This document shows positions 20,820 to 58,436 of a DNA stretch of 64,000 nt, piece by piece. A program made the translations under genes and the position numbers. This DNA is from Thermonema rossianum DSM 10300 (GTDB lineage Bacteria; Bacteroidota; Bacteroidia; Cytophagales; Thermonemataceae): contig NZ_AUGC01000008.1 of NCBI RefSeq assembly GCF_000426825.1, positions 62,001 through 126,000 on the forward strand, read 5' to 3'. The notes beneath the pieces are model-generated. The model did not search any database and had not been told where the DNA came from. It was given only the letters and a program-made list of their open reading frames with translations. Position 1 is the stretch's first letter; each line of letters starts with the position of its first letter.

Positions 20820-20851
20820 AAAAAAGCCGGTAAGCACAAGCTTTACCGGCG
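20820..20851 (-). terminator. Rho-independent terminator after greA
   Basis: On the minus strand GCCGGTAAA-GCTTGTG-CTTACCGGC is followed by TTTTTT. It lies between greA and the HIT gene, so part of the greA transcripts should stop here. Confidence 0.8.
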
Positions 20852-20885: not shown

Positions 20886-21368
20886 TTACAGTTGCGCCAA
20901 CGAGATTTCGAGGATCTCGAAGGTGATGGTGCCTGCCGGCACGGTAATATCTACCTTTTCGCCTACTTTTTTGCCCAGCAAGCCTTTGCCTATGGGCGAC
21001 TGCACCGATATCTTGTTTTCTTTTAAATTGGCTTCTTCTTCGGGTACGAGTGTGTAGGTCATCTCCATGCCGTTTTTGGTGTTGCGTATTTTCACGGTGG
21101 TTAAAATAGACACTTTCGACAAGTCTATATTGCTCTCATCAATGATGCGCGCATTGCTGATAAGCTCTTCCAGCTGCGATATCTTCAGTTCCAGCAAGCC
21201 CTGTGCATCTTTTGCCGCATCATATTCTGCGTTTTCGCTGAGGTCACCTTTATCGCGAGCTTCGGCTATTTGACGGGCTATTTCGGCGCGTCCTTTGGTT
21301 TTCAGCTCCTGCAATTCGGCTTTCAATCGCTCCAATCCTTCTTTGGTATAATAATTTATCTTTGCCAT
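20886..21368 (-). CDS. greA: Transcription elongation factor GreA
   Basis: Rescues backtracked RNA polymerase by stimulating transcript cleavage through its secondary channel. 160 residues, full length: N-terminal coiled coil with the tip acidic residues in KGDLSENAEYDAAK, then a C-terminal FKBP-like domain ending in PAGTITFEILEISL. First gene of the run greA-HIT-accA-MBL-NqrM-like. Its leader carries a strong promoter and an attenuator-like hairpin (see those entries). Confidence 0.97.
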   Translation of the reverse strand: MAKINYYTKEGLERLKAELQELKTKGRAEIARQIAEARDKGDLSENAEYDAAKDAQGLLELKISQLEELISNARIIDESNIDLSKVSILTTVKIRNTKNGMEMTYTLVPEEEANLKENKISVQSPIGKGLLGKKVGEKVDITVPAGTITFEILEISLAQL

Positions 21369-21394: not shown

Positions 21395-21439
21395 AAATAA
21401 AAAAGAGAACGGTCATATGTTTTACCATAGACCGCTCTT
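21395..21439 (-). terminator. Terminator-like attenuator in the greA leader
   Basis: On the minus strand AAGAGCGGTC pairs with GACCG-tt-CTCTT (10 bp, one 2-nt bulge), with a further inner TATG/CATA pairing, followed directly by TTTTATTT. It lies between the greA promoter (transcript start near 21450) and the greA ATG at 21368. It should release a leader RNA of about 55 nt unless bypassed. Confidence 0.65.
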
Positions 21440-21455
21440 GTTTTGTTCTTGATTA

Positions 21456-21486
21456 CAAAGGTAAAAAATCATTCTAAAAAAAGCAA
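21456..21486 (-). promoter_or_regulatory. greA promoter (TTG-N20-TACCTTTG)
   Basis: Minus strand: -33 TTG at 21484-21486, 20 nt gap, -7 TACCTTTG at 21456-21463. This is an exact match to the Bacteroidota primary-sigma promoter layout. Predicted start near 21450, giving a leader of about 80 nt. Confidence 0.75.
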
Positions 21487-21570: not shown

Positions 21571-21846
21571 ATGAAACAATTTGTGGCATTGGTGTTTACT
21601 TTGGCATTGATGTTTTTTGCGCAGAACGCTTCTGCACAAGTGCAGGCCGTATCGCCGGCAGCACATCAAGTGAAGCAGGTGGAGAAGGTAGAAAAGAAAA
21701 AGTGTGACAAGTGCAAAGAAGGCAAGAAGTGTAAAAAGTGCAAAGCCAAAGCACATGCTAAAGCAGAAGAAAAAAGCTGCTGCAAGAAAGGCAAGAAAGA
21801 CGCTTGCGACAAGCGCAAAGAAGAATCGGAAGAAAACGACGACTAA
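21571..21846 (+). CDS. Small exported Lys/Cys-rich protein
   Basis: 91 residues. A signal peptide (residues 1-22, ending NASAQ) is followed by a short linker and a very basic region with repeated CxxC-type clusters: KKCDKCKEG, KKCKKCKAK, CCKKGKKD, DACDK. It ends in an acidic tail, EESEENDD. Lys and Cys make up most of the mature chain, suggesting metal or polyanion binding, but no family is recognised and low-complexity sequence can mislead. It has its own promoter and terminator. Confidence 0.75.
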   Translation: MKQFVALVFTLALMFFAQNASAQVQAVSPAAHQVKQVEKVEKKKCDKCKEGKKCKKCKAKAHAKAEEKSCCKKGKKDACDKRKEESEENDD

Positions 21847-56999: not shown

Positions 57000-58436
57000 A
57001 TGAAACTTACATTCTGGGGCGCTGCCGGTCAAGTGACGGGCAGCATGTTTTTACTTGAGACCGACGACGACTATCGTATTTTGGTCGATTGCGGTTTTGA
57101 TATGGAGCGGGAGCGTTCACCCGAAGACCCCATCGATGCCCACCCGTCCCGCTTGTTTCCTTTCGAAGCCTCGATGGTCAATACTGTCATTCTGACCCAT
57201 GCACACATTGACCACTCGGGCAACATTCCCAACCTGATTCGCGAAGGTTTTGAAGGGCAAATTGTTTGCACTTCGCCCACTATGACACTCACGGAGCTGC
57301 TGCTCGAAGACTCGGCTTCTATCCACGAGCGTAAGTGGAAGAAGTATCGCCGCCAAAAGGACCGTCAGCCTTTCTCTAAAAATGGTATCACATTGCCCAA
57401 AGAATGGTTTGTGAAGAAGCATGTAAACTGGGCAAAAGAGCAGTTTTTCCCTATTCAATTCAACCGCCGTTTTCAACTTGCCGAGGGCGTGCATGTTACC
57501 CTGCTGCCGGCCGGTCATTTATTGGGGGCTGCGCATGTGCTGCTGGAAGTGGTAGAACGGGGCGAAAAGAAAACAATCCTGTTTTCCGGTGATTTGGGAC
57601 GCTACAACTATCCGCTCTTGCCCGACCCGGCTATTCCGCCGCAGGTCGATTATCTGATTTGCGAAAGCACTTATGGCGACAAACAACGCAGCACCGTAGG
57701 CGAGCCCGAAGAAGTGCTGCTCGATATTGTGAAGGAAGCCTGTGTGTCGAAAGCAGGCAAGCTGATTATTCCGGCGTTTAGCGTAGGGCGTACCCAGGCG
57801 CTGTTGTTTACACTCAATAAGTTGTATTTGAAGAAGAAACTACCGCCCATTAAAGTCTTTTCCGACAGCCCCTTGGCGCACAGCAGCACCCGCGCCTATA
57901 TGAAATATGTGAACATGTTGAACGATGAGGCGCAAGCTTTTTATGAAGAGCACCGCGTGCTGTTTGACTTCGAAAACTTGGTGTACGTAGAAAAACTGAA
58001 GCAGAGCAAAGCTTTGGCTTATTTGAACGAGCCTTGCATTATCATCTCTTCTTCGGGCATGGTGCAAGGGGGGCGCATCGAGCACCATGTGCGTGCCAAT
58101 ATTCAAAACCCACAATCTACGATTTTGATGGTAGGATATGCCGCAGAGGGCACGCTGGGGCATGAACTGCTGAGTGGCGCCAAGACCATCACGGCACACA
58201 AAGAAAAAGAAGAGGTGGAGGTGCTTGCCAATATCGAAAGCATTGATGTATTCAGCGGGCATGGCGACCAAGCCGACCTTTTGCGCTTTGTGTCGCACCA
58301 AGACCCGGAGCGTTTGAAAAAAATATTTCTGGTGCATGGCGAATTGCAATCCATGCAAACGTTCAAGCAGCTATTGCATGAACGCCGTTTCCGGGAGGTG
58401 GAAATCCCCTTGCGGGGACAGACCTTTGAGCTGTAG
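57000..58436 (+). CDS. MBL-fold RNA metallo-hydrolase with beta-CASP domain
   Basis: 478 residues. Metal motif THAHIDHSGNIPNL, further ligands in LPAGHLLGAAH and ILFSGDLGR, then the beta-CASP insertion and the C-terminal His region SGHGDQADLLRFV. This is the CPSF/Ysh1-like bacterial branch of exo- or endonucleases acting on RNA. Substrate unknown. Confidence 0.93.
   Translation: MKLTFWGAAGQVTGSMFLLETDDDYRILVDCGFDMERERSPEDPIDAHPSRLFPFEASMVNTVILTHAHIDHSGNIPNLIREGFEGQIVCTSPTMTLTELLLEDSASIHERKWKKYRRQKDRQPFSKNGITLPKEWFVKKHVNWAKEQFFPIQFNRRFQLAEGVHVTLLPAGHLLGAAHVLLEVVERGEKKTILFSGDLGRYNYPLLPDPAIPPQVDYLICESTYGDKQRSTVGEPEEVLLDIVKEACVSKAGKLIIPAFSVGRTQALLFTLNKLYLKKKLPPIKVFSDSPLAHSSTRAYMKYVNMLNDEAQAFYEEHRVLFDFENLVYVEKLKQSKALAYLNEPCIIISSSGMVQGGRIEHHVRANIQNPQSTILMVGYAAEGTLGHELLSGAKTITAHKEKEEVEVLANIESIDVFSGHGDQADLLRFVSHQDPERLKKIFLVHGELQSMQTFKQLLHERRFREVEIPLRGQTFEL

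Follow-up and report, generated by a model that had tools for sequence, protein, structure and literature searches.

A putative promoter-proximal attenuator in the greA leader of Thermonema rossianum and its conservation across Bacteroidota

Anatomy of the greA leader

The greA gene of Thermonema rossianum, which encodes the RNA-polymerase rescue factor GreA, is preceded by a hairpin and a U tract that lie between its promoter and its ATG, and the question arises whether this element attenuates greA and what would set the read-through. The locus was examined in the window, i.e., the whole stretch of 64,000 nucleotides that was analysed, and in greA loci of other Bacteroidota. The greA leader is best read as a promoter-proximal intrinsic terminator that would attenuate greA, with the read-through probably set by factors on RNA polymerase, and a probability of about 0.8 was assigned to this reading. 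The features of the locus, in the order in which they are met on the minus strand, are as follows.

21484–21486, minus strand: -33 element TTG of the greA promoter, identified in the sequence and conserved in a same-genus relative (G001)
21456–21463, minus strand: -7 element TACCTTTG, identified in the sequence and matching the Bacteroidota sigmaA consensus TAnnTTTG (PMC7366714, PMC9723704)
21398–21451, minus strand: predicted short leader RNA of about 51–55 nt, its extent derived from the promoter geometry and from the U tract
21406–21438, minus strand: terminator hairpin of 13 bp (9 + 4 around a one-base bulge) with a 6-nt loop; -18.5 kcal/mol with flanks
21396–21405, minus strand: U tract CUUUUUUAUU, identified in the sequence and identical in G001
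20886–21368, minus strand: greA ORF (160 aa) with its ATG at 21368–21366 and acidic finger-tip residues within GDLSENAEY
20826–20850, minus strand: hairpin and U tract at the greA 3' end, found by scan; -15.0 kcal/mol, less stable than the hairpin of the leader

The first-pass annotation had described a TTG-N20-TACCTTTG promoter followed by a stable hairpin and a U tract upstream of the greA ATG, and this arrangement was confirmed from the minus-strand sequence, by folding and by shuffling. The spacing from TTG to the -7 element is exactly 20 nt on the minus strand, and the hairpin AGAGCGGTCTATGGTAAAACATATGACCGTTCT (21438–21406) and the adjoining CTTTTTTATT (21405–21396) are both located 5' of the ATG. 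The fold of the leader hairpin had a z score of -5.0 over 61 nt and that of the predicted leader RNA was -5.5, and none of the 200 shuffles was as stable in either case. Of the window's strong minus-strand hairpin-plus-U sites, the one in the leader had the top score, and the site at 20850, at the end of greA, scored lower. A simple consensus scan of the window for promoters and terminators listed neither the -33/-7 promoter nor the leader hairpin, which is probably explained by the loop and stem limits of the scan as against a bulged hairpin with a long loop. The promoter-terminator unit was found in none of the eight greA/greB-like paralogues scored, and the genome has no second copy of the greA leader.

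In F. psychrophilum, the TAnnTTTG box occupies positions -12 to -5 (PMC9723704), and the greA +1 was therefore placed near 21451. With this geometry, the stem is predicted to begin ∼12 nt after +1 and the RNA to end near 21398, and the predicted length of 51–55 nt agrees with the ∼55 nt that had been proposed for the leader RNA. The predicted leader RNAs of the relatives had length quartiles of 32, 36.5, and 50 nt, the window leader being 51 nt by the same rule, and in many Flavobacteriales the stem is predicted to start at about +1.

Conservation and covariation of the hairpin

A greA homologue was present in all 59 relatives. When the window was compared with G001, the identity was 94% in the hairpin, 100% in the U tract, and 90% in the promoter, against 61% in the upstream flank and 67% in the downstream flank, and both differences in the hairpin fell on unpaired bases. 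A hairpin of -6 kcal/mol or lower with a U tract within 200 nt was found in 195 of 200 Bacteroidota greA leaders, a rule under which a few weak hairpins (e.g., L008 and L062) are probably spurious. Under a stricter rule (-8 kcal/mol, no more than 150 nt from the ATG), the hairpin and U tract were found in 184/200 greA leaders, and in 64/217 control genes and 88/600 shuffled leaders. The exact TAnnTTTG just upstream of the hairpin was present in 93/200 greA leaders, and under the stricter rule the combination with this box was seen in 2/217 control genes and 2/600 shuffled leaders. The control genes came from genomes of the same phylum and had an intergenic space of 60 nt or more, and their starts, being those of the longest ORFs, are rough. 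The families sampled had one or more positive greA leaders in 42 of 47 cases; these leader counts are not independent, as the sequences share descent and some genomes sit in both collections. The shuffles and control genes together ruled out chance from composition as the source of the hairpin.

One of just two control genes with TAnnTTTG and then a terminator in the leader is the window gene at 57000–58436 on the plus strand, and its leader may be another attenuator.

The terminator character of the element was assessed in 178 leaders by a hairpin search that had no T requirement. The mean number of T in the 8 nt after the stem was 5.0, compared with 3.2 before the stem and 2.8 expected, and this enrichment faded within ∼8 nt past the stem, as in a terminator. 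As a control of the detector, the GraL terminator of E. coli was recovered. In Hymenobacter and related genomes (L031, L034, L038, L095, L099, and L110), the greA leader has an exceptionally stable hairpin (-25 to -31 kcal/mol) and an interrupted U tract (CCTTGTTTTTT), a pattern that looks as though the strength of the stem made up for a weak tract. The greA leaders of Mucilaginibacter (L100, L102, L111, and L112) apparently contain two tandem hairpin-plus-U elements before the ATG.

The window's order has the stem core AACGG...CCGTT, which is kept in sequence as well as in pairing. The stem is AATCCCG...GGGATT in Flavobacterium, and GAAGAGC...GCTCTTC and more were found in other groups. The stems have completely diverged between classes, being wholly different in Flavobacteriia and Bacteroidia, with the position before greA retained. 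In an alignment of 37 sequences (A1), 94.6% of the cells were paired, and 30 both-side changes were counted as compared with 7.6 in shuffles, none of the 500 shuffles reaching 30. A second alignment of 19 sequences (A2) was 97.4% paired and had 11 both-side changes compared with 2.0 in shuffles. Because the sequences were chosen by motif, part of the percentage paired is built in, and the both-side changes are less affected by this. The slid-partner controls dropped off in both alignments, the pairing in A1 being halved when the partner was shifted by a single column. The pair flanking the core in A1 was found as GC, AU, UA, CG, and GU, and the core pairs C-G, G-C, and G-C were invariant, which fits with strong stability, the procedure of sequence selection, or sequence recognition. 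The compensatory changes in related greA leaders by which the hairpin was to be judged were thus found phylum-wide.

The AACGG...CCGTT core with a U tract did not occur in 264 kb of control sequence and is therefore not simply a general terminator style there. In whole genomes, the covariance model also matched similar-looking gene-end terminators, and the greA leader was the best match in most of the genomes that had any match. A regulon of the same hairpin before other genes was rejected, as the strong non-greA matches of model R1 that were inspected were gene ends. Several reduced genomes of the window's order (L241–L243, L245, and L246; about 1.1–2.6 Mb) have no promoter-proximal terminator in the greA leader, so the hairpin is dispensable in them, and this absence suggests a regulatory, dispensable role.

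Proposed control of read-through and relation to known greA leaders

The leader was searched for stable structure ahead of the 3' arm of the terminator. In the window (21453–21416), it reached only -1.2 kcal/mol, which was no better than shuffles, and across 94 leaders the median was -0.5 kcal/mol with 11 leaders at or below -3. An RNA-sensing switch is therefore unlikely, which would leave RNA polymerase and its factors as the control point. A riboswitch, a T-box, or a leader peptide was rejected on the same structural evidence and for want of room. We infer that RNA polymerase initiates ∼12 nt ahead of the hairpin, that part of the transcripts end at the U tract to give an RNA of 51–55 nt, and that the others read through into greA. 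The terminator would fold once made, with no competing structure ahead of it, and the read-through would probably depend on RNA polymerase factors, of which GreA is most likely one, by analogy with E. coli, rather than on a metabolite, a tRNA, or a leader peptide; a feedback of GreA on leader termination is the favoured hypothesis for Bacteroidota.

In E. coli, about two thirds of the transcripts end at the terminator of the greA leader, and catalytic GreA reduces greA expression through the leader in a manner that requires its catalytic residues (PMC6829880). An accessory factor is suspected because the GreA effect is absent in vitro, and the mechanism by which E. coli GreA increases termination in the greA leader has yet to be explained (PMC6829880). 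Control by GreA in E. coli involves the 18 nt that precede the terminator; many Flavobacteriales have almost no segment at this place, and the regulatory step may therefore differ.

The window leader shares with GraL (Potrykus 2010; Dylewski 2019, PMC6829880) an intrinsic terminator that lies near the start site, after the promoter and before the greA ATG, a short 5' segment before the terminator (19 nt in GraL and ∼12 nt in the window), and a GreA with the same acidic finger-tip residues (GDLSENAEY here and GDLKENAEY in E. coli). The RNA length is also similar, the GraL RNAs being 37–59 nt in vivo and 51–55 nt being predicted for the window. The two differ in the stem (11 pairs in GraL and 9 + 4 with a bulge in the window) and in the distance from the end of the terminator hairpin to the ATG (∼100 nt in E. 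coli and 37 nt in the window). The short RNA and the GreA feedback are proven for E. coli only. No sequence homology with GraL was recognisable when GCTGACCTGGG...CCCGGGTCGGT and AGAGCGGTC...GACCGTTCT were compared by eye, without an alignment statistic, and the leader was therefore filed under greA-leader attenuators and not under GraL. In a search of Rfam 15, no family matched the window leader or 20 diverse relatives, and the sole match in the window was a tRNA.

Premature terminators are known to recur upstream of greA in Proteobacteria, bacilli, and Clostridia, and greA/rnk ranked seventh among the gene families with such terminators (Naville & Gautheret, 2010, PMC2965389). Like the members of this class, the window leader has a same-strand Rho-independent terminator in the greA 5' region that is not the terminator of the upstream gene. 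The “clear antiterminator structure” described for each cluster in that study, which is a model prediction rather than an entry criterion, has no counterpart in the Bacteroidota leaders, in which the RNA ahead of the 3' arm is without stable structure. The main text of PMC2965389 makes no mention of Bacteroidota, and the greA leader is not discussed in the main text of the B. thetaiotaomicron and F. psychrophilum transcriptome papers. In the main texts of the articles searched, no report of a Bacteroidota greA-leader attenuator was found. Judged by its sequence, the window leader is a putative addition to the greA-leader attenuators known from Proteobacteria, bacilli, and Clostridia. The first-pass view of an attenuator with a GraL-like layout is well supported by conservation and covariation. 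The parallel that it drew with a distant phylum stood in so far as Bacteroidota share the layout; the arrangement also occurs outside E. coli and Bacteroidota (PMC2965389).

We tentatively consider, as possible but doubtful, a wider reading in which recurrent promoter-proximal termination before greA holds GreA constant and has arisen or been renewed independently, with unrelated hairpins, in several phyla. Its Bacteroidota form would operate with no antiterminator, RNA polymerase would respond directly to GreA, and the AACGG/CCGTT core of the window's order would be read by some factor. The amount of GreA matters because GreA and other factors compete for access to the RNA polymerase secondary channel. 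The phylum-wide greA leaders, alike in layout, unrelated in their stems, and free of an antiterminator, separate the essentials (promoter, hairpin, U tract, and GreA) from E. coli detail and offer natural variants for testing.

Alternative functions of the hairpin

The alternative that survives best, although unlikely, is a 5'-terminal stem-loop that shields the greA mRNA from decay, with the U-rich stretch being incidental and the read-through nearly full. Stem-loops placed at the very 5' terminus are known to stabilise mRNA (ompA type), and where the promoter is clear the stem starts at or within ∼2 nt of the predicted +1 in about half of the leaders; the distance of the stem from the -7 box, whose end is at -5, had quartiles of 3, 6, and 13 nt. 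In the window, however, the stem starts ∼12 nt from +1, and the layout of stem plus U tract is the same as that of the proven GraL terminator of E. coli. The U enrichment after the stem and its terminator-like drop-off also stand against protection and fit with the attenuator.

Slightly less probable is the possibility that the main product is a trans-acting small RNA and that attenuation of greA is secondary. GraL of E. coli does act in trans on nudE (PMC6829880), and the conservation of the AACGG/CCGTT core across the order, together with its absence elsewhere in the control DNA, would agree with such a role. The change of the whole stem sequence in Flavobacteriia and Bacteroidia with the position before greA being kept points instead to a cis role, as the attenuator reading has it.

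An ordinary 3' terminator of the upstream gene that chances to precede greA is very improbable: although the upstream gene is co-directional in 67/136 greA loci and similar-looking gene-end terminators occur in these genomes, it is divergent in 68/136 loci, and in several co-directional loci (e.g., L017, L033, and L042) TAnnTTTG follows the stop codon of the upstream gene and precedes the hairpin. The window is one of the divergent loci, its upstream ORF starting ∼170–200 bases away on the plus strand (from 21541 or the ATG at 21571), and since that gene reads the opposite way the hairpin cannot terminate it, which refutes this explanation for the window. The small ORF concerned, 21571–21846 on the plus strand, opens with a signal-peptide-like segment and continues with a body rich in Cys and Lys (CDKCKEGKKCKKCK), and its product is possibly a secreted metal-binding protein.
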